In this document: positions 28 through 56,501 of the stretch, piece by piece | Position numbering within the stretch: the first letter of the stretch is position 1 | How the letters are laid out: every line of letters starts with the position of its first letter | Assembly: GCF_001438845.1 (NCBI RefSeq) | Contig: NZ_JQCL01000029.1 | Span: 1 to 64,000, forward strand | DNA from: Lactiplantibacillus xiangfangensis | GTDB lineage: Bacteria > Bacillota > Bacilli > Lactobacillales > Lactobacillaceae | DNA length: 64,000 bases | Direction: 5' to 3' | Position numbers and translations under genes: made by a program | Notes under the pieces: generated by a model | Told to the model about the DNA's origin: nothing | Database searches by the model: none | What the model saw: the letters and a program-made list of their open reading frames with translations, nothing else

Positions 28-97
28 GCCAAATTTCTGGTTGGCTTTTCCTATTGTTATGACCGAAACGTGCGCCAAAAGGCAGTTTGCTCCGCTT
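28..97 (+). repeat. Partial copy (A1) of dispersed repeat family A
   Basis: Positions 28-97 match 14490-14570 and the left part of the copy near 29870: a hairpin with GCCAA/TTGGC arms and a T-run, then the block GAAACGTG, CCAAAAGGCAGTTTG and TCCGCTTAAC. The match stops where the stop codon of the WxL gene (96-98, minus strand) begins. The inner hairpin and right arm found in the complete copies are missing. Confidence 0.7.
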
Positions 98-2231
98 AAC
101 TCGGCGCGTTATTTAATGTCCAGGTGATCTTGCCAGAATACGATCCCGGCGTTGCCGCCGCGTTCGTCTTATAAAACATTCCGGAATCAGCCGTCCAATT
201 CTTTGTGACATCGTATTCATCGGTGTCGCTGGTCGTCTCACGGTCATCAATCAAAGCACCCGTACCGTTTAAGACCGTCGTTTTACCATCCCGTTTGAAT
301 AGTAATTCGCCCGGAAGCTTCTTACCGTCCGTGGTTGTAAAATCGCCCACACTGGCTTGTAATTGCCAGCTTGAGCCCTTACCACGTTGGTCACTGACAA
401 CAACTTCCCAGTCACCTTCCCGACCCGTTGTTTGGGACTTACCATCTAAGGTAACTGGTTTAAACGTACTGGCACCCGCAACGGTTTTGAAACCTAGTTG
501 CCCCCCCTGAACAATAATCGTCGTTTTAATTTCTTCAGACTCGTTATCATCCATATCAGAGAACCATGCGGTCAACGTATTTTCACCAACGTTTAACTGT
601 TCGGGCTTAATCTTGACAACAAAGTACCCGGATTCGTCATCGTCATTCATTTGGAAATCATCCAGCGGCTTCCCGTTTAAAGATGGGTGCACCGTAACTT
701 TACTGTTGGCGAGCTGTTCTGAATCTTCAGCGATAACTAGCCCGGTCACTTTGGCTTCCTCACCCTTAGCCACCGTATAGCTTGGCTTCATGAAAGTCGC
801 TGAAAGCTTCTGATCCACAGTAATCGTGTAATCCGGCGCATCCGCCTTGGTTTCAAACTGCTTGTTTTTAAACGTGCTCGTGGTGGTAGTCGTCCCACTG
901 TTGATGGCCACGTCGTCAGCCTTCCCCGTTAAGGTGATCGTTGCCGTCGGATTCGTATTAGAAATGGCTTTCTCAAGGCGGTATTCGATATCTTCAGCAC
1001 CAGCTTCCGGCGCATCTAAAGCCTGTTCTGTCCCGTCTGCATACTTGATTGTCGCCCCACTGAACGTCACGTACTTAGGCAACTTCAGTTGGGCGTCAAT
1101 GTTATCCCAGTCCAAATGACCGCCGGTATAAGTGAGCTGGTAGTCATATTGCAACTTATGATTCGCCTTAACTTTACTGTCGGCCGTCACCGTCTTGTCC
1201 TTAGTCACATCCGTCACTTTAACATCGGCCTTAGCCGCCACTAAATTGGGCATGCTTTCAATCACGACCATGTTGCTCGTTGAATTACCACCCGTGGCTC
1301 CCATGATGCCCCAACGAACCAGGCCGTCGGCACTCTTGAACTGACTCGTGTCAATGACTTCGCTATTCGTATAGCTGGCAGCATTATCAGTCCCATCAGG
1401 ATTAACATCATCAAACGTATAAGTCATCGTTTTAGCCGTAGCACTCCACTTCAAAACTAAGTGATGCCAAGCACCGTTGGACAAGTTTTTCCAAGTCATC
1501 AGGTTATTGTGATTTTGTGAGAAGTAGTACCGGGTCGACCAGATAATCCCTGTCAGGTCCCAGCTACCAACCGATTCACTTTTATATTGGCTTGCTAAGC
1601 CAGGGTATCCCGTTGCTAAATGCTGATTTTTATTTCCTTTGTCAAAGGCACCCCCATTACCAGCATCACTATACGACGTGGCCGTATTCGCATAGGTATC
1701 AAACTCTAAGGCCCAACTATTTTGAATCGCAGTATCTGCAATGGCTTGCGGATCCTGCTGCTTATTATTGGTATCCAGACCCCAAGTGCCGAGGGTCTCC
1801 CCAATGATACTCCCCGGTTTAATTTGAGCCGCGGCACTCGTGCCGCTCGGATCATTTTGTAACACGAAGGCCATGCCATCGCCGGTACTTTTAGCGGTTC
1901 CCAAGTAGAGCCACATCTTGATGGTCGCATCTTGATTTAGATCCAACCGACTGGCGTCATTCGACCAGAAACCACCAACTTGCTTTTTACTACTAATCAC
2001 GTTGACGGCTTGCGTGTTCGGTGCACCACTATTAGTCGTATCCACGATCGTGGCATTATTGGCTACCCCGCTACTAAACGCACTCGGCAACGTAATGACC
2101 TTATCTAACTGGTTGATCCCAGACGGCGCCGTTGCCAAATTAGCACTAACCGTGACGTTCTGCGTGGTACCAGCCCATAAACCAGCTAACGCCAACAAAC
2201 TCATCATTAACAGTTTCGGTACCTTCCGCAT
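96..2231 (-). CDS. WxL-domain surface protein with L-type lectin-like domain
   Basis: A 711-residue secreted cell-wall protein and the last gene of the minus-strand WxL operon. A signal peptide (about residues 1-30, MRKVPKLLMMSLLALAGLW) is followed by a legume-type (L-type) lectin-like domain to about residue 260; the segments LDLNQDATIKMWLYLG and GDGMAFVLQND fit this fold. A middle region of beta-rich repeats follows, then a C-terminal WxL domain with the paired motifs SWQLQ and ITWTLNNAPS. WxL domains bind peptidoglycan non-covalently, and the lectin fold suggests glycan binding. I placed the start at the ATG at 2231 because the signal peptide begins there; the frame is open further upstream without one. 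The gene follows the DUF916 protein by 17 bases. The ligand is unknown. Confidence 0.88.
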   Translation of the reverse strand: MRKVPKLLMMSLLALAGLWAGTTQNVTVSANLATAPSGINQLDKVITLPSAFSSGVANNATIVDTTNSGAPNTQAVNVISSKKQVGGFWSNDASRLDLNQDATIKMWLYLGTAKSTGDGMAFVLQNDPSGTSAAAQIKPGSIIGETLGTWGLDTNNKQQDPQAIADTAIQNSWALEFDTYANTATSYSDAGNGGAFDKGNKNQHLATGYPGLASQYKSESVGSWDLTGIIWSTRYYFSQNHNNLMTWKNLSNGAWHHLVLKWSATAKTMTYTFDDVNPDGTDNAASYTNSEVIDTSQFKSADGLVRWGIMGATGGNSTSNMVVIESMPNLVAAKADVKVTDVTKDKTVTADSKVKANHKLQYDYQLTYTGGHLDWDNIDAQLKLPKYVTFSGATIKYADGTEQALDAPEAGAEDIEYRLEKAISNTNPTATITLTGKADDVAINSGTTTTTSTFKNKQFETKADAPDYTITVDQKLSATFMKPSYTVAKGEEAKVTGLVIAEDSEQLANSKVTVHPSLNGKPLDDFQMNDDDESGYFVVKIKPEQLNVGENTLTAWFSDMDDNESEEIKTTIIVQGGQLGFKTVAGASTFKPVTLDGKSQTTGREGDWEVVVSDQRGKGSSWQLQASVGDFTTTDGKKLPGELLFKRDGKTTVLNGTGALIDDRETTSDTDEYDVTKNWTADSGMFYKTNAAATPGSYSGKITWTLNNAPS

Positions 2232-2248
2232 ATTGAAAACTCCTCTCG

Positions 2249-3265
2249 TTAGTGATCCTGACGACGGCGATTTTTCAAGAGTAACCAGATAATGGCACTT
2301 AGTAGCGCTAAAATAACGACGCCTAACGCGACAAACCACCAGAAGTAGTTTGGCTGGGTCTGATCACCGACAGCCGTATCATTCAAGTGTTTGGCTTCTT
2401 TATCCGTAATCGTAAAGTTGCGCGTAAACTGCCACTTCCCCTTATCCGCGGTTGCGGTCAAATGGAGGGTGTACTTGCCAGCTTTGAGCTGTTTTGACCC
2501 ATCGCCCATCGCAAAATTAAAGTTACTGTTGGGCGCCATGGCTAAGTTATCTTTACTCATCACCATTAATTTTTTACTAGCACCCGCGGCCGTAACGTAG
2601 CTCTTGATCTTGAGACCGTGCATAATAACGGACCGGTCGTTTTGTAAATTAGCCGTGACATAGTTGCGATAATTTAACTGCGTCGCCTTAATTTGGTGTA
2701 GCTTCATGTTTGGCTTTATTTTAATTGAATTGGACTCGCGAAGCTGAACACCTAACACGTAGGCGTACTGGTTATCGATTGCCATCCCGCTACTTTTCTC
2801 TTTAGTCGCCTTCAACTCTTGAATCACATTGATGCCACCTAAGGCAATCCCCTCAAATTTTTTCTGCGGGACCGTTAACTTCACGGTAACCCGCTTACTC
2901 GATTTGGCAGGAACGGTAACCACCTGCTTTTCAGATAATGCCGTTTTGACATTGAACGCTAAAGAAGAATCCGCCTTGGCTTTGCTCTGACTGTAGTCAA
3001 TGATTCCGTTATCGTTAGTCACAGCCAGGTTTGGTGAAATCGTATAACGATGCGTCTGCTGATCACTGTTCTTGATCGTCAACACCAAGTTTTGCTTTTG
3101 CCCCGGCTTCACCTTTAAATCAAAATAAGACACCTTTTGATTAATTTGGTTAGTTGGTAATTCTGCCTTGACCGTGTAATTTAAGTTATCAGCTTGTGCG
3201 GTTACCGTTAAACCACCCAACACAACGCTTACGAGTAATACCAGTTGCCAAAACGTCTTTTTCAT
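2249..3265 (-). CDS. DUF916/DUF3324 WxL-interacting membrane protein (CscA-like)
   Basis: A 338-residue secreted protein with a signal peptide (about 1-25), an N-terminal DUF916 domain, now called the WxL protein peptidoglycan domain (FDLKVKPGQKQNLVLTIKNS near 50-70), a DUF3324 host-binding domain, and a C-terminal membrane helix (about 309-331, FWWFVALGVVILALLSAIIW) ending in a basic tail. Members of this family occur in nearly every csc/WxL cluster and hold WxL proteins at the surface. Ribosome site AAGGAAGGGG lies 8 bases before the ATG. It sits between the WxL genes in the same operon. The family assignment is firm; its exact partners are inferred from the neighbourhood. Confidence 0.9.
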   Translation of the reverse strand: MKKTFWQLVLLVSVVLGGLTVTAQADNLNYTVKAELPTNQINQKVSYFDLKVKPGQKQNLVLTIKNSDQQTHRYTISPNLAVTNDNGIIDYSQSKAKADSSLAFNVKTALSEKQVVTVPAKSSKRVTVKLTVPQKKFEGIALGGINVIQELKATKEKSSGMAIDNQYAYVLGVQLRESNSIKIKPNMKLHQIKATQLNYRNYVTANLQNDRSVIMHGLKIKSYVTAAGASKKLMVMSKDNLAMAPNSNFNFAMGDGSKQLKAGKYTLHLTATADKGKWQFTRNFTITDKEAKHLNDTAVGDQTQPNYFWWFVALGVVILALLSAIIWLLLKNRRRQDH

Positions 3266-3356: not shown

Positions 3357-4043
3357 TTAACTCGGCGCGTTTGTCAACGACCATGCGAGGGTCCCAGTGT
3401 AATCGCCCGCCGTTAACCGTTGATTATTAATAGTCAACGTCGTTGGTTTTGACCCGCGATTTAGGACCAGTAGCCAAGTACCAAGCCCCGTCTGGCGATC
3501 CGCGACAACGACGTTATTGGCAATTCCCGGGGTTAACGTGCCCGTATTGACCATCGTTGGCGCCGCACTGGCATTACCGTCACCGGCGCGCAACTGGGCT
3601 GAACCGAGACTCAACGTTGTACTTAGCGTCTGCTGACGACTTCGTAACGGGCTGGGCGTTACTTGTAGTGTCCAGCCGCTGCCAGTACTTCGACGATCGG
3701 TGACTTGAATCATTGCGCGCTGGTTAATCGCGTTCGTTGTCACCGGACCTTGTCCAGTGGTAGTCGCATCAAACTTGAGGTTACTAATGTAATCAATCGT
3801 CAATTGTCCCCGCGAACCAGTCCCGGTAACGTTGCCCGCATCAGCGGAATCCCCGGGATAAGGTTTGCTCGGATCATCTGGATCAACTGGTGCGACCGCA
3901 CCATTGTCATCGGTCGGGGTGAGCCCGACCTGCACCTGCGATCGTGAAGCCGCCTGACCAGTCGTCCTATCCAGACTATTGAGTAACAGCGTTGCTAACA
4001 ATATCATTAGTAACCCACTCGCCAGTGACAGTCCCTTGACCAT
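3357..4043 (-). CDS. Short WxL-domain surface protein
   Basis: A 228-residue secreted protein with a hydrophobic signal segment (MVKGLSLASGLLMILLATLL), an acidic proline/aspartate linker (VDPDDPSKPYPGDS) and a WxL domain covering most of the chain, with the two hallmarks SGWTLQV and LAWSLTNAPS. It has the size of CscB-type proteins. I chose the ATG at 4043 over the GTG at 4049 because GAGG lies 7 bases before the ATG and only one base before the GTG. It is the third gene of the operon, 30 bases after the preceding WxL gene. Its likely role is non-covalent wall attachment in a complex with the DUF916 protein. Confidence 0.88.
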   Translation of the reverse strand: MVKGLSLASGLLMILLATLLLNSLDRTTGQAASRSQVQVGLTPTDDNGAVAPVDPDDPSKPYPGDSADAGNVTGTGSRGQLTIDYISNLKFDATTTGQGPVTTNAINQRAMIQVTDRRSTGSGWTLQVTPSPLRSRQQTLSTTLSLGSAQLRAGDGNASAAPTMVNTGTLTPGIANNVVVADRQTGLGTWLLVLNRGSKPTTLTINNQRLTAGDYTGTLAWSLTNAPS

Positions 4044-14454: not shown

Positions 14455-14485
14455 TTAGACTAAAAAGGGGTTGCGACAAGACTCA

Positions 14486-14519
14486 AAAAGCCAATCAGAA
14501 AATTTCTGGTTGGCTTTTT
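14486..14519. terminator. Rho-independent terminator
   Basis: AAAAAGCCAA-T-CAGAAA pairs with TTTCTG-G-TTGGCTTTTT across a one-base loop gap. It ends the aquaporin transcript and leads directly into repeat A2; the same hairpin in shortened form precedes copy A1. Confidence 0.88.
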
Positions 14520-14524
14520 CTATT

Positions 14525-14653
14525 GCGATGGTCGAAACGTGGGCCAAAAGGCAGTTTGTTCCGCTTAACCCGAAAGTCGCGACTATTCCAAACCCAGGAA
14601 TAATCGCGACTTTCACGTTAATGCTCGCAAACTAACCGTCTTTTGGCCCACTC
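14525..14653. repeat. Dispersed repeat family A, copy A2
   Basis: The copy is bounded by a perfect 12-base inverted repeat, GTGGGCCAAAAG (14539-14550) and CTTTTGGCCCAC (14640-14651). Inside, a 17-base stem (14573-14589 with 14597-14613) encloses the loop AAACCCA. It lies between convergent genes. Related copies are at 28-97, 29868-29998 and 56285-56405. Confidence 0.85.
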
Positions 14654-14675
14654 TCTTCCATTTTGACCGTTTCGC

Positions 14676-16421
14676 CTACTTACGGCGCCAATGTTGATAC
14701 CAGGAATGTAAAGTCCCGATGACGAGTCCAATAATGACAACGACTGCGGTAACGTACCCAAAAATCCCAATGTTGGTAATCCAGCTATTATCGGGGTGAC
14801 TCTGAACGAGTAGCGATGATCCCACGATCAGCGCCGCCAAAATAACGGACAAAACCACCTTATTGACCATTGAATCAATACGGTCAATGAACATCTTCCG
14901 GTGCGAAAAGACAATGTTGACCCGCGTCTGGCCATTTTCAAACGTCTCCAACGCGGCTAACAACCGTGATGGCAACTTGGGGGCATCACGCACGCCTTGC
15001 AACGTTGCTAACACCCCATCTTCCAGCTCATTGCGGAGGTTAAGATGCTCCTGCATGTATTTGCGGGCAAAGGGGCGGGCCACGTCTAACATGGACAGGT
15101 TCGGATCCAAGGTCTCAACAATACCTTCGATCGTGCCGAATGCCTTCCCCAGCATGGTGACCGCCGGATTCATTTGGATATTATTGCTACGACAGACCTT
15201 GACCATTTCAAATAGTAGTCCTTGAAAGTCAATGTCGCCAAGTCCCGAGTTGTAATACTGGCCTAAAAACGGCGCCAACTCACTGAAGAAGCCCTCTTCA
15301 TCGACCGCCCCGGTCCGATTTGAAATCGCCAGGATGGCTTTGCCGACCTGCCGAGTATCCTCCGTTGTCACGGCAACAATGACGTTTGCAATCCCGTTCA
15401 TTAAGGACGGACTAATCTCACCCATCATCCCAAAATCCAAGTAGACTAACCGGTACGGTGGTAACCGCCGTTTACCGATCTTGCCACGCCGCTGCGGTAC
15501 GGTATCGCTATAACCAATGTCACCCGGTTTTAATTCACGCAATAAAATGTTGCCCGGATGGGGATCCGCGTGAAAGAAGCCGTCTTCAAAAACTTGTTTC
15601 AAGAAGTTTTGTACCAACGTGTGGGCTAAGTACCGCCGTTCATCATCAAATTGCTGGTTGCCTTCACGGTCCGCTTTGATCATTTTCGCCATGAAGTGTT
15701 GGATACTATCCCCCGGCATATACTGATTAACGAGGACCTTTTGGGTACTGTACTTAGCGTAGACCCGCGGAACCCGAATAATATCATCTTGATTATTCAA
15801 CCGATAAAACCGGGACCCGTTGCGAACTTCGATATTGGTATCCAGTTCGTTAAAGAGTGACCGCTTAATCTCGCCGACCATTTCACGAAGGTCCACAACC
15901 GATGACTCTGGAATGTAGCGCAAAAGTGGCAACGCCCGCTCAAACAGCGAAATATCCAAGGCTACTTCAGCGTCAATTCCCGGGTGCTGCACCTTCACCA
16001 CGACTTTTTGACCGTTCAGTAAAGTTGCGTGATGGGTCTGGCCCATTGAAGCCGACGCAAAGGGCTGGTGCTCAAAAGTGGCAAAGATCTCATCCATCGG
16101 TTTGCCCGTCTGCCGTTCGATCGTCCGCTGCACCACGTCGTAGTCGTCAGCTTTGACGTCGTCTTGTAATTTTTTAAATTCATTCGCAAATTCTGGCTTA
16201 ACAATGTCCGTTCGCGCCGACAAAATTTGCCCAATCTTAATAAAGGTCGGTCCTAATTCTTCAAAGGCCGCCCGCACCTGTTCTGGATTCTTCTGCCGAG
16301 CCAGGTTGCTTAAAACGTTGTAACGTCGCAACACGCCCACAATGGTACGAAAACGGGTGTGGCGATTCTGATTTTTCTTCCACTGGGGTTGTTCACTGGT
16401 TCCTTCATCCATTTCAGTCAC
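14676..16421 (-). CDS. UbiB/AarF (ABC1) family kinase-like membrane protein
   Basis: A 581-residue atypical kinase of the ABC1/ADCK/UbiB family. Family motifs are present: FIKIGQILSARTDI (KxGQ), the lysine in VVVKVQHPG, the catalytic loop FFHADPHPGN and the metal motif VYLDFGMMGE; two membrane helices end the chain (VILAALIVGSSLLV and YVTAVVVIIGLVIG). In bacteria that make quinones these proteins support ubiquinone synthesis; in lactobacilli the role is not settled. The start is the GTG at 16421, about 9 bases after GGAGG; an ATG at 16412 is the alternative. It is a single-gene unit. Confidence 0.9.
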   Translation of the reverse strand: MTEMDEGTSEQPQWKKNQNRHTRFRTIVGVLRRYNVLSNLARQKNPEQVRAAFEELGPTFIKIGQILSARTDIVKPEFANEFKKLQDDVKADDYDVVQRTIERQTGKPMDEIFATFEHQPFASASMGQTHHATLLNGQKVVVKVQHPGIDAEVALDISLFERALPLLRYIPESSVVDLREMVGEIKRSLFNELDTNIEVRNGSRFYRLNNQDDIIRVPRVYAKYSTQKVLVNQYMPGDSIQHFMAKMIKADREGNQQFDDERRYLAHTLVQNFLKQVFEDGFFHADPHPGNILLRELKPGDIGYSDTVPQRRGKIGKRRLPPYRLVYLDFGMMGEISPSLMNGIANVIVAVTTEDTRQVGKAILAISNRTGAVDEEGFFSELAPFLGQYYNSGLGDIDFQGLLFEMVKVCRSNNIQMNPAVTMLGKAFGTIEGIVETLDPNLSMLDVARPFARKYMQEHLNLRNELEDGVLATLQGVRDAPKLPSRLLAALETFENGQTRVNIVFSHRKMFIDRIDSMVNKVVLSVILAALIVGSSLLVQSHPDNSWITNIGIFGYVTAVVVIIGLVIGTLHSWYQHWRRK

Positions 16422-16589
16422 AGAGCGTCCCCTCCTATCATCTATGCTAAAGCCTATTATCTAACATTCCCACCCAATTCGCACTAACTAACCGCAAGTT
16501 TTTCAAAAAGCATTGACAAACTATAACAACCGTTGTAGATTAAAGGCACATTAAAAAACGGTTAACAAACACGTTGATGAACAAAGTAA

Positions 16590-16855
16590 GTTAGCAAAGC
16601 ACGCCTAGAGAGTGTCGGTCTGGTGAAACGACATCCTGCTTTCTTAACTGAAAATCAGTTCTGAGTGGCAGTGGCGAACGATTTAATTAGTTGCTGTTGG
16701 GTGCTCCCATTATCGAGCCCGGGTATCACGAGTGGCCGGCCACTCGCCGTACCTGTTAAGGCGGTTCGTAGCAATACGTCCGTAAAGCTAAGGTGGTAAC
16801 GCGTGTTAAACGTCCTGGTTTCTGAGTCTAACTCAGAAAGCGGGACGTTTTTTTG
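16590..16855 (+). promoter_or_regulatory. T-box leader of the BrnQ gene
   Basis: The leader carries the invariant T-box sequence AAGGTGGTAACGCG (near 16788) followed by a terminator hairpin, AACGTCC...GGGACGTT plus a T-run (16808-16853). Upstream lie stem I features including AGAGAGTGTCGG, GGTGAAACGACA and CTGAGTGGCAG. Such leaders read uncharged tRNA and prevent termination. The ATC triplet at 16654-16656 is my best candidate specifier (isoleucine), which fits the gene, but I could not fold the RNA. Confidence 0.9.
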
Positions 16856-29639: not shown

Positions 29640-29826
29640 GCCAGAGGTTGGCGCTGATAGCATCGGTCGTGAAGGTGGTCTTAGGCCGGTGAATTCTTCC
29701 GGCCTTAAACCACGGACGGTCTGGAACAATTGCGCCGTTTGCAATTGTTCCAGGCGAGGGGCGAGACCGCTTCTCAGGCTCGACCCGGTCCCACGACCGC
29801 ATGTTACCAGCGGCAACCGGACTAGG
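29640..29826 (+). repeat. Dispersed repeat family B, copy B2
   Basis: Outer arms GGCGCTGATAGCATCGGTCGTG and CACGACCGCATGTTACCAGCGGC enclose three hairpins: GTGGTCTTAGGCCGG/CCGGCCTTAAACCAC, GGAACAATTGC/GCAATTGTTCC, and GGGGCGAG/CTCGACCC. Relative to B1 several paired bases change together. It is followed by copy A3. Confidence 0.85.
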
Positions 29827-29867: not shown

Positions 29868-29998
29868 ACTATGGTCGAAACGTGGTCCAAAAGGCAGTTT
29901 ATTCCGCTTAACCCGGCATCAGCGACTGTCCCAAACCCAGGAACAATCACTGACGCCACGTTAATGCTCATAAACTAACCGCCCCTTGGTCCACTCTT
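29868..29998 (+). repeat. Dispersed repeat family A, copy A3
   Basis: It has the conserved left block (GTCGAAACGTGG, CCAAAAGGCAGTTTATTCC), an inner stem GGCATCAG/CTGACGCC around CCCAAACCCAGG, and the right block (CACGTTAATGCTCA, AACTAACCG, TTGGTCCAC). It lies between the convergent GH42 and xylB genes. Confidence 0.83.
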
Positions 29999-30000
29999 AA

Positions 30001-31506
30001 TTATTCAGCCCGCCGATAAGCCATCAACGCCGCGGTCATGCCCTTAGTTTGTGAATAGGCTTGGTGATAGACTTGGTCAATCTGTTGATAAGCCGTCACG
30101 TTTTCAGCAATCGGTTCGTAGACCTTGCCGTAATGAACGAAGGTTTGAGCGCAGTCTTCCATCGAATCAAACCAACCCAGACCAGTGGCCGCAATCATTG
30201 CCGCCCCCATGCCGGGCCCCTGTTCATTTTGTAAACTGACTACGGGGTGATTGAAGATATCGGCTTGAATTTGCAGCCAGAGCGGGCTCTTTGCGCCACC
30301 ACCGATGGCGACCACCGTCTTAAACTGACTGCCGTGCTCTTCGTAGATCTGCATTAAATCTTTAAACGAGAAGATAATGCCTTCCAAAACGGCCCGCACA
30401 AAATCGTAGCGCTGGTGCGTGCCATCGATACCGATGAAGCTCCCGCGGATGTCGGCGTCGGCGTACGGTGCCCGTTCACCCACGATGTACGGGGTAAAAA
30501 TTAGGCCGTTGGCGCCCACCGTTGACTTGGCAGCGCTGGCAACCATTTCCGTGAAATCAACGTCGGGCGCAAACGTCTTTTTAAACCAGCTCAACGAATA
30601 GCCGGCCGCCAAGGTGACGCCCATCGAGTAATACTTGTCAGGAAAGGCGTGGTCTTCAAACTGTAAAACACCGTGATAGTTAGTATTAGGATTATCTTCA
30701 TACTTCAAGACCACGCCGGATGTCCCGATGCTAGCCATGACTTTGTCTTCGGATAAAATCCCAGCACCGACCGCACCGGCAGCGTTATCCGCAGCCCCAC
30801 CATAAACCTTGGTGGTAATCGTTAACCCGGTCTGTTGGGCATACTTCGGCGTGACATTGCCCGCAAAATCCACCGACTTCATCAAAGGTGGGCAGATTCG
30901 TTCAGGAACCCCAAGTTGCTCACAAATCGTCTTGCTCCACTTGCCCGTTTTAACGTCTAACAGGACCGTCCCGGTCGCGTCAGAGTAATCCATGGCGAGT
31001 TGTCCCGTCATGCGGTAACGAACGTAATCCTTAGGCAAAACAAAACAATCCGTTTGGGCCCAAATTTCAGGTTCATTTTCTTTGACCCATAATAACTTAG
31101 GCAACGTGAAGCCTTCAAGTGGCCGGTTACCCGTGATTTCGACAAATTGATCACCCATCACCCGTTCAATTTCATGACACTGTGGCGTGGTTCGGGTATC
31201 GTTCCATAAGATTGCAGGCCGCAATACTTGGTGGTTCGCATCCAATAACACTAACCCGTGCATCTGACCCGAATAACTGATCCCTTGAATGTCTTCAGGC
31301 TTTAAATGGTCCTCACTGATTAACCGTTGAATGGCAGCCGTCGTACTGGTAACCCAGTCTTCAGGTCGTTGTTCACTATAACCCGGTTGTGGCTGTTGTA
31401 ATTCATAACCAACACTTTGCTGGGCAACGACGGTCCCCGCCTTATCTACGGCCAACACTTTAACCGCGCTGGTCCCTAAATCAACACCTAATACTACTGC
31501 ACTCAT
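30001..31506 (-). CDS. xylB: Xylulokinase
   Basis: A 501-residue FGGY-family kinase phosphorylating D-xylulose to xylulose-5-phosphate, which feeds the phosphoketolase or pentose phosphate route. It has the phosphate motif [11 protein letters not shown] (about 6-16), [19 protein letters not shown], and [19 protein letters not shown] near the C-terminus. The ATG at 31506 fits family N-termini; GTG or TTG codons just upstream are possible. It is 102 bases downstream of xylA on the same strand, in the L. pentosus order xylA-xylB. Confidence 0.94.
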
Positions 31507-31608
31507 ATTTTTCACCAACTTTTTATTTTTAAAAAAGGACCCGCGACGTTGGTCTCAGGCCCTTCTCCCATTCTCTATCTCAAAATGTCATCAATTCTCT
31601 TAACCTAA

Positions 31609-54989: not shown

Positions 54990-55200
54990 ATAAATTAAGG
55001 GTGGTGTGCCGATGTCGGCCGTTTGTTAAGGTAAGAGATACTGCGAAAAGTTGGTTTAAAACCAGCTTAGTTTCGTGTACCCTTATGCTTGGCAAGAAAC
55101 GACGGCTGACAACGGTCACCGGATCGCTTTTTGTGGTGCAGTGGGTAACTGCGCCTTTTTTGTCCAACCAACAAGGGTACTGACTTGTGAAAGGATTATA
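54990..55200 (+). promoter_or_regulatory. Structured attenuator-like leader of the rsgA-like gene
   Basis: The leader can close a domain by AAGGGT (54997-55002) with ACCCTT (55079-55084), enclosing a GTTGGTTT/AAACCAGC hairpin. The same ACCCTT (as GTACCCTT, 55077-55084) is also a perfect partner of AAGGGTAC (55173-55180) just before the ribosome site. Between them is a terminator (55135-55161): GGTGCAGT/ACTGCGCC plus six Ts. ACTGC at 55040-55044 could pair with GCAGT of that terminator. A five-codon frame, ATG at 55012 to TAA at 55027-55029, has AAGGG 10 bases upstream. I recognise no known riboswitch. Confidence 0.6.
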
Positions 55201-55203
55201 AAA

Positions 55204-56280
55204 TTGACAATTAATTTAACAACGTATGGCCTAACTAACTATTTTGAAGACCTCGCTCAGGCAACCCCCGAGCTGACCCTAGCTCGCATCATCTCCCAAC
55301 ATCGGGATTTGTACCAAGTCGTTAGCGAACAAGGTCAGCAACTGGCGCAAGTCAGTGGCAAACTCAACTATCAACTAACGGACCCGACCAGCTATCCGGC
55401 GGTTGGGGACTGGGTCTTAATGACGGCCACGTCAACAACGGATCAGGCCGTCATTGACCAAGTTTTGCCACGGCAGAGCTTACTGGCCCGCTCAGCGGCT
55501 GGGACCGGCCGTCAGGGACAGGCCATTGCCGCTAATTTGACCACGATCTTTATTTGCATGGCGTTAAATGGCGACTTCAACGTCCGCCGACTAGAACGCT
55601 ACCTGACCATGGCTTGGGATAGTGGCGCCACCCCAGTCGTGGTACTGACCAAGGTGGATTTGTGCCCCGTTTTAGACGCTAAGATGGCCCTGTTAGCCGA
55701 CAGCACAATGGGCGTCGACGTTATTAGTTGTTCCGCTAAGACGGGGGCCGGTTTCGATGCGGTCAACGCCTACCTGCTACCTGGCAAAACGGTGGCGTTC
55801 ATCGGTTCCTCAGGTGTCGGCAAATCAACTTTAATCAACCATTTGCTAGGCACCGAAGCCCTGCTGACAAAAACGATTCGTGAAGACGATGCCAAGGGCC
55901 GCCATGCGACCACGGCACGCCAATTAATCGTCTTGCCGCAAGGTGGGTTAGTGATCGATACACCGGGAATGCGCGAATTACAACTTCTGAGTGGTAACTT
56001 TGACCAAAGCTTTGCCGACGTCACGGCGTTAGCAAAGAATTGTAAGTTTCGCGATTGCCAGCACCAAGGGGAACCCGGATGTGCCGTCCAAGCGGCGATT
56101 GCAACTGGTGAACTCTCAGCAGACCGCTTAGCCAGCTACCAGAAATTGCAACAAGAACTCGCCTATCAAGGTTTAACGGCCCGTGAGCGTGAAAATGCCA
56201 AAATCGAGCGACTGTTTGGTGGTAAAAGTGCCATGAAACAAGTCGTTAAGCAGGTTCGGCAGAAGAATAAGCGCCGGTAA
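55204..56280 (+). CDS. rsgA: RsgA-like circularly permuted GTPase
   Basis: A 358-residue YjeQ/RsgA-family GTPase that helps mature the small ribosomal subunit. It has an N-terminal OB-fold, the permuted order of GTPase motifs (TKVD, then GSSGVGKSTLINHLLG, then DTPGMREL), and a C-terminal zinc-type region CKFRDCQHQGEPGCAV. The start is a TTG at 55204, 8 bases after AAGGA; upstream frame is leader sequence. It is not in the usual position next to a Stk-type kinase and rpe, so it could be a second, conditional copy. It is controlled by the leader described at 54990-55200. Confidence 0.9.
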   Translation: MTINLTTYGLTNYFEDLAQATPELTLARIISQHRDLYQVVSEQGQQLAQVSGKLNYQLTDPTSYPAVGDWVLMTATSTTDQAVIDQVLPRQSLLARSAAGTGRQGQAIAANLTTIFICMALNGDFNVRRLERYLTMAWDSGATPVVVLTKVDLCPVLDAKMALLADSTMGVDVISCSAKTGAGFDAVNAYLLPGKTVAFIGSSGVGKSTLINHLLGTEALLTKTIREDDAKGRHATTARQLIVLPQGGLVIDTPGMRELQLLSGNFDQSFADVTALAKNCKFRDCQHQGEPGCAVQAAIATGELSADRLASYQKLQQELAYQGLTARERENAKIERLFGGKSAMKQVVKQVRQKNKRR

Positions 56281-56284
56281 ACAG

Positions 56285-56405
56285 AGTGGACCAGAAGGCG
56301 AAGAGCTTGTGAGCATTAACGTGGAATCAGGGATTATTCCGGGGTTTGGAATGGGCCCTGATTCCGGGTTAAGCGGAACAAGCTGCCTTTTGGGGCACGT
56401 TTCGA
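56285..56405 (-). repeat. Dispersed repeat family A, copy A4
   Basis: On the minus strand it shows the left block (GTCGAAACGTG, CCAAAAGGCAG, TTCCGCTTAACCCGG), the inner perfect stem GGAATCAGGG/CCCTGATTCC (56356-56365 with 56323-56332) around ATTCCAAACCCCGGAAT, and the right block with CACGTTAATGCTCAC. It is downstream of the rsgA-like gene and convergent with the MFS gene. Confidence 0.83.
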
Positions 56406-56422
56406 CTAGCAAGATGCCATAA

Positions 56423-56501
56423 AAATAGAGGATCAGAAATCGGTTACCAATGATTTCTGATCCTCTATTTGAGTTATATTTGAGTTATATTTGAGTTATA
56501 T
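56423..56501. terminator. Terminator followed by three 11-base direct repeats
   Basis: AAATAGAGGATCAGAAATC pairs with GATTTCTGATCCTCTATTT (56423-56470). Then TTGAGTTATAT is repeated three times (56469-56501). The terminator serves both convergent genes. Confidence 0.85.

Follow-up and report, generated by a model that had tools for sequence, protein, structure and literature searches.

Copies of REP/BIME often lie just after stop codons, and RUP is thought to be IS-derived. Among dispersed repeats that have been described, ERIC looks closest to the element analysed here. ERIC of enterobacteria and Vibrio is about 127 nt long, forms one long imperfect stem-loop and occurs in about 20 to more than 200 copies depending on the genome; the ERIC hairpins of Yersinia are reported to regulate neighbouring genes via RNA folding (PMC2267715). 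The passages of the same source on other repeats give REP units a length of 30-40 nt and describe BOX and RUP of Streptococcus pneumoniae as repeats that are scattered between genes, form stem-loops and measure about 100-200 nt (PMC2267715). They also describe Efa-1 of Enterococcus faecalis, which is intergenic and 163 nt long, has 65 matching sequences (18 complete) and forms two adjacent stem-loops (PMC2267715, 2008). The L17 downstream element (RF01708) is a structured 3'-UTR RNA of Lactobacillales and Listeria, and its strand was judged by G-U pairs (PMC2864571).

We analysed a window, i.e. the whole stretch of 64,000 nt of Lactiplantibacillus xiangfangensis DNA, and found what looks like an undescribed structured RNA element of the REP/ERIC-like kind. 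Its fold, strand and position, its spread across the order and the gain, inversion and decay of its copies were established by computation. Like ERIC, an imperfect palindrome of about 127 bp, the element is dispersed and folds as RNA, and it is likened to ERIC in how it works, membership not being implied. Unlike ERIC, it belongs to Lactobacillales and not to gammaproteobacteria, a terminator often travels along with it, and its stems vary freely while its loops are fixed. One 22-nt ERIC primer, allowed up to 3 mismatches, had 0 matches in the window. REP/BIME are also palindromic and fold as RNA, but the element is about three times longer than REP, and the Y1 transposase that goes with REP (RAYT) is absent from three of the copy-richest genomes of the genus (G000, G012 and G007). 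BOX and RUP share the order with the element, as compared by description alone. The published size and double hairpin of Efa-1 fit the hairpin plus terminator of our element, and by this description Efa-1 may be an enterococcal form or cousin of it, or else unrelated. The L17 downstream element has one gene context (ribosomal protein L17), and RF01708 had no match at the elements scanned. Rfam release 15 gave nothing near the cut-off at the elements scanned, among them those of 18 loci where the sole match above the cut-off was the tRNA beside the element of locus L068. Open-access literature (mostly listings), searched by description and with sequence pieces, gave no account of the element. 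Efa-1 apart, no identity to a described repeat emerged from Rfam or this literature.

The original prediction had proposed four related copies at gene 3' ends. Three full copies of 124 nt are located where it placed them, as seen with the covariance model R1, which matches them on the +, + and - strands in order of position, and the fourth (placed at 28-97) is a half copy; all four are at gene 3' ends (Table 1). R1 was built with window copies or their like, so that its E-values place the window copies and are no independent test. The pattern AGAGTG-N100..116-CACGTTT matched exactly the three full copies in the window, with a maximum of 1 match in 100 shuffles. A sequence like the terminator hairpin next to the focal copy lies beside many element copies in the window's own genome (G000) and in a sister-species genome (G012); hairpin and terminator are co-dispersed there. 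Two other features of the window were observed. Another repeat, likewise dispersed and about 180 nt long (29644-29825), adjoins the second copy and has 82-90% matches in loci L179, L188, L194, L202, L203, L222 and L230. There is also an ordinary T-box leader at 16565-16820, above the gathering score (97.7 bits).

Table 1. Element copies, terminator-like hairpins and the genes read into them in the window
Feature	Coordinates	Strand	Evidence and remarks
Decayed half copy, sense-RNA 3' arm only	62..104	-	sequence; R1 E 0.88
Gene with its stop codon (96-98) inside the half copy	96..2339	-	747 aa; lectin-like, below Pfam's cut-off
Terminator-like hairpin, A-run before and T-run after	14485..14519		sequence
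Focal full hairpin element	14531..14654	- (sense)	R1 E 7.8e-35; read out of gene 14676-16421
Gene read into focal copy, ABC1 atypical kinase domain	14676..16421	-	21 nt from element
Second full hairpin element	29874..29997	- (sense)	R1 E 3.8e-30
Gene read into second copy, FGGY carbohydrate kinase	30001..31518	-	3 nt from element
Gene read into third copy, RsgA GTPase	55075..56280	+	2 nt from element
Third full hairpin element	56283..56406	+ (sense)	R1 E 4.9e-30; read out of gene 55075-56280
Terminator-like hairpin 3' of third copy	56425..56473	+	sequence; weak inner-stem match in R1 search

The sense RNA forms one rod of about 46 bp between AGAGUG and CACGUUUCGAC. The rod is interrupted at constant places by a 5' bulge of 4 nt, by an internal loop (GA/GGA) beside a bulged A, and by an apical loop. 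Two copies were compared with shuffles, and their fold energies are far lower (z -10.7 and -8.7). It was claimed that the inner stem changes yet stays paired, and this held in two different hand-chosen sets of 40 copies each, A1 (aligned on the strand of the prediction) and A4 (sense strand, from several lineages). Double changes were found in 31 of 45 pairs in A1, whose covariation score was 0.32 compared with 0.03-0.07 for structures slid by 1-3 columns. In A4, 94.7% of cells were paired, 35 of 46 pairs had double changes, and the score was 0.574, whereas shuffles scored 0.186 and slid structures 0.047-0.115. None of 500 shuffles reached any covariation measure in either set; because the copies are related, these counts are not probabilities, and the slid-structure controls retain the relatedness but favour the structure derived from the same sequences. 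What stays constant is both ends (AGAGUG and CACGUUU), the GG(U/G)UAG bulge region, parts of the loop, and the GA/GGA internal loop with the bulged A beside GC-UUAAC. A second subfamily in genome G145 has GAGGACUAAC/GUUAGCCGGA at the corresponding place. GTTAAGC/GC(A)TTAAC is reminiscent of integron attC boxes; this likeness was dropped, as the motif sits in the middle of the stem and is broken by one G145 subfamily. It was also observed that the outer stem varies most at A4 pairs 7-116 to 10-113, directly inward of GUG/CAC, and that these pairs 7-10, unlike their neighbours, are unpaired in about one fifth of the cells.

Which strand is the RNA was judged by non-canonical appositions and by folding. 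Alignment A2 comprised 120 matches (119 distinct) from 100 of at least 115 loci found by a pattern scan, namely L069-L170 minus L105 and L107, with L171-L183 left out. Alignment A3 comprised 97 matches (96 distinct) from G000, G012 and G007, with 73 of the 80 loci L184-L263 taken and loci without a detected normal-length copy left out. On the strand of the prediction, the ratio of A-C to G-U appositions was 295:89 in A2 and 211:90 in A3, and the A-C excess persisted after clustering at 85% identity (179:56 and 52:23). Most informative columns leaned the same way (29/39 in A2, 29/37 in A3). The fold of the opposite strand, i.e. the sense strand, was more stable in 118 of 119 copies in A2 and 94 of 96 in A3; over cluster representatives the proportions were 69/70 and 20/20, with a mean difference of -12.0 and -13.5 kcal/mol, respectively, in its favour. 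Sense and antisense energies were -69.1 versus -62.5 kcal/mol for the focal copy, -68.9 versus -42.0 kcal/mol for the second copy and -65.8 versus -49.9 kcal/mol for the third copy. In the second copy, the one mismatch noted in the original prediction (there placed at 29868) turns out to be a G-U pair on the opposite strand. The plus strand (GTCGAAACGTG...CACTCT) was therefore rejected as the functional RNA on the G-U/A-C counts and the fold energies: the prediction had read the weaker-folding strand, and it is the gene on the CACTCT side to which the element belongs. Strand-biased C-to-T mutation could contribute to the G-U excess, but it is unlikely to be the source of a difference this large plus the double changes.

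The strand result also bears on the idea of a protein-binding DNA cruciform or a chromosome-organising site. Long near-palindromes and an uneven density along one chromosome (G145 C1) are what such a site might look like, but a DNA cruciform predicts no strand difference, and a duplex site gives no reason for one strand to fold better in nearly all representatives or for a fixed orientation to genes. We regard this reading as very improbable.

In the sense direction, the gene end is followed, usually within about 10 nt, by the hairpin (AGAGUG...CACGUUUCGAC) and often by an intrinsic terminator some 15-27 nt beyond the hairpin. The hairpin itself is not built as an intrinsic terminator, in which a GC-rich stem runs directly into a U-run, as it has no U-run at its end. 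Copies were classified if both sides had a neighbour gene no more than 800 nt away. Among them, the 3' end of the gene that is read into the element faced it in 29/33 cases in G000, 35/40 in G012, 10/16 in G007 and 68/103 in the pattern-scan set (at least 115 loci); a further 2, 3, 3 and 28 copies, respectively, were left out because they lie within an ORF, at an edge or far from genes. The median distance from the gene end was 5.5-7 nt in G000 and G012, at most 7 nt in G007 and 4-8 nt in the pattern-scan set. A second count found a suitable gene end within 60 nt of 166 of 271 copies, and of only 71 of 139 in the pattern-scan set. Of these 166 distances, 115 were between -2 and +10 nt, and 10 genes end further inside the element. 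A tRNA 3' end was located just upstream in two of the 271 copies (9 and 72 nt). With a few copies located after tRNA genes, translation termination cannot account for everything.

Terminator-like hairpins within 90 nt were found on the 3' side of 27/34 copies in G000, 40/44 in G012, 10/20 in G007, 57/137 in the pattern-scan set, 14/26 in G145 and 4/8 in other families. The corresponding numbers on the 5' side were 5/34, 6/44, 4/20, 20/137, 2/26 and 0/8, and those in random windows were 19/96, 18/105, 3/42, 42/345, 7/60 and 8/60. Both the terminator test and the gene-end test are weaker outside G000 and G012. The 5' edge of the element is sharp at AGAGTG, with no conservation of the 5' flank except weak A-richness, and on the 3' side conservation continues into the terminator in G000 and G012. 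The strand-specific fold and the position after gene ends support the claim of selection on structure and, among the three options offered in the original prediction (a MITE-like element, a 3'-end RNA or a protein-binding cruciform), favour the 3'-end RNA. A dispersed family of 3'-UTR RNA elements is thus our best explanation, with a probability of roughly 60%; transcription through the element and an effect on the mRNA are inferred from fold and position.

A small RNA or a regulatory 3'-UTR of a defined regulon would have the same anatomy, since a conserved fold followed by a terminator is what a 3'-UTR-derived sRNA shows, and one protein family, by sequence a putative ABC-type ATPase, recurs four times among the host genes. 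The host genes as a whole do not fit: 166 adjacent genes fell into 140 clusters, several clusters common to more than one host gene being orthologs of sister genomes, compared with 221 clusters for 236 control genes, and the window hosts are unrelated (kinase-like protein, sugar kinase, GTPase and lectin-like protein). A regulon was rejected on this clustering, and we consider the reading as a whole quite unlikely.

The element is spread widely within one order. In G000, a whole-genome BLAST search with the focal copy gave 44 matches at 40 places, three matches being the same places on the other strand and one place being split in two; the covariance model adds a few copies, e.g. C49:17928-18051. 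As a DNA query, the focal copy matched 20 of the 21 genomes of the genus. R1 matched all 21, with one element in G016 up to tens elsewhere, and because the element is nearly palindromic and R1 can match both strands, R1 counts overstate copies up to twofold. Across the family, R1 matched 98 of 201 genomes and 20 of 40 genera. The covariance search that had been proposed with the original prediction was run with a model of the sense strand (R2) and matched 71 of 395 Lactobacillales genomes, covering 25 of 80 genera and six families, while Rfam had no match. Of these 71 genomes, 41 belong to five families other than that of the window. In a sample of 398 genomes of the phylum, R2 matched only G000. 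Whenever a search covered more than 40 genomes, the filters were stricter and only a few candidates were scored in each genome. Twelve of the 41 outside genomes, picked for having matches, were examined in more depth and yielded more, with 2 to 64 matches per genome at E 1e-5, most of them 117-124 nt long; tandem arrays with a period of about 123 were found in outside genomes.

The pattern scan gave at least 115 stretches; among the 80 matches listed, 79 were from Lactobacillaceae. The genera among the matches listed were Lactiplantibacillus, Levilactobacillus, Lapidilactobacillus, Pediococcus, Companilactobacillus, Lentilactobacillus, Paucilactobacillus, Lacticaseibacillus and one uncultured genus. 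A pattern match in Pseudomonas fluorescens (L105) was attributed to chance, as it was absent among model matches. Of the 113 model matches in the pattern-scan loci, 101 were carried forward; those left out were reverse-strand duplicates and cut or short pieces. BLAST against plasmids matched three Pediococcus damnosus plasmids with the G000 query and one Aerococcus record, listed as a 592 kb plasmid, with two queries from outside the family; a third outside-family query had no plasmid match. The G000 query had no phage match by BLAST, where a single query is insensitive to diverged stems, and viral contigs had 0 matches to the AGAGTG...CACGTTT pattern. Three further observations concern the arrangement of copies. 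On G145 C1 (1.94 Mb), 86 copies are unevenly spread (6, 2, 8, 9, 22, 14, 13 and 12 in eight bins; chi-square p 0.0013). Short hairpins consisting of element ends without the inner stem lie beside full copies in L344 (about 3950-4000 and 1985-2020) and in the flanks of L295/L296. In some arrays, the last unit before a terminator is a 5' half copy.

Comparison of G000 with G012, whose flanks are mostly 86-96% identical, revealed turnover of the copies. From 35 G000 candidates, 15 had both flanks in G012 stretches and 20 were unplaced at first; two window copies were placed later and one weak candidate (L239 1866) was dropped. The 16 informative copies comprise 11 that are full-length in the same orientation in G012, two inverted in place, two decayed and one absent; conversely, G000 lacks or has a decayed form of two G012 copies. 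The G012 stretches were taken around existing copies, so that empty sites are under-sampled. Where G000 has 189 nt at the focal site, a plain terminator is found in G012, with 37 nt unaligned. Since G012 has the plain terminator and the stretches of G006, G016 and G002 that match the site have no element, the simplest reading is that the focal copy was gained on the G000 lineage. The G012 ortholog of the third copy has lost the inner stem. In 13 orthologous copies, 78 of 598 pairs changed and 50 of the 78 remain paired (20 by double change, 30 by one-sided change), while 28 are broken. Some double changes may be due to gene conversion between copies, as in L248/L188, whose inner stem is replaced by an entirely different one. 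Paired positions differ at 8.9% and unpaired positions at 10.3%; paired positions thus vary nearly as often as unpaired ones at orthologous copies, and this counts against our best explanation, as does the incomplete pairing of A4 pairs 7-10. Sister species also differ by the loss or breakage of individual copies, so no single copy looks indispensable.

This turnover bears on the suggestion of a MITE-like, i.e. non-autonomous, DNA element, whose ends would be recognised and moved as a unit by a transposase acting in trans. Dispersed copies with presence or absence between close genomes, a feature of MITEs, are found here: there are about 40 dispersed copies, tandem copies, the gain of the focal copy, the two in-place inversions, decay, and the sharp 5' edge. 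On the other hand, there is no conserved target motif 5' of the element, no target-site duplication was seen at the one clean empty site (focal), and the focal unit replaces a native terminator rather than splitting a site. The Y1 transposase (PF01797), the only transposase family searched, is absent from G000, G012 and G007, which together with G006 are the copy-richest of the genus; G006 has one intact. Y1 transposases occur in 13 of the 21 genomes of the genus, in copy-rich (G008) and copy-poor (G013, G017) ones alike. The lack of a phage match, the few plasmid records and the mostly fixed orientation to genes also speak against a MITE-like element. We consider it an unlikely reading; under it, the hairpin would be a by-product of, or needed for, recognition of one strand as ssDNA.

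Alternatively, the hairpin-plus-terminator transcript could be reverse transcribed and reinserted, as in SINEs. The strand-specific fold, the precise 5' end and the co-dispersal with the terminator in G000 and G012 agree with this, and in some truncated copies (the window half copy, the G145 flanks) just the 3' part of the sense RNA remains, which is the remnant expected from target-primed reverse transcription. Other truncated copies, at array ends, retain the 5' half, however, and no RVT_1 domain was found in the copy-rich genomes G000, G005, G006, G007, G008, G012 and G015, several of which are drafts. We judge RNA mobilisation improbable, somewhat more so than a MITE-like origin. RAYT or RVT_1 as a present-day mover in G000, G012 and G007 is unsupported by the search of two enzyme families in 21 genomes (several drafts), where no candidate mover was found among Y1 transposases and RVT_1. 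Recombination between terminators or an enzyme of another kind may move the element.

We return to the 3'-UTR RNA reading, for which fold, strand and position suggest a mechanism. Transcription of an ordinary gene would pass the gene end into the 124-nt RNA, which would fold as a rod and could protect or process the mRNA 3' end. The rod might be a barrier to 3'-5' exonucleases together with a site of double-stranded-RNA cleavage or protein binding, much as ERIC hairpins, by analogy, act on RNA; its anatomy fits a 3'-end cap or a processing site because a long double-stranded RNA rod stands before the terminator. The hairpin-plus-terminator cassette may spread and replace the native terminator of a gene. 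Selection would then maintain the RNA fold at the level of the family and not of single copies, since the cassette could stand in for a native terminator. More tentatively, and with the odds somewhat against it, the family may be an undescribed class of structured RNA found across the order. As a 'cap plus terminator' cassette, it would spread onto the 3' ends of whatever transcription units it meets, and it would be a dispersing element that is held in shape by a dedicated RNA-binding or processing factor of Lactobacillales and is selected at the mRNA level. That length and loops are fixed while stems are free points to a factor that recognises the element specifically. If our reading is right, genomes in part of one order each carry up to tens of copies of an RNA missed by Rfam, which would alter the 3' ends of many mRNAs of bacteria from food and the gut. 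That a gained copy replaces a terminator makes the spread of REP/ERIC-like repeats directly testable.
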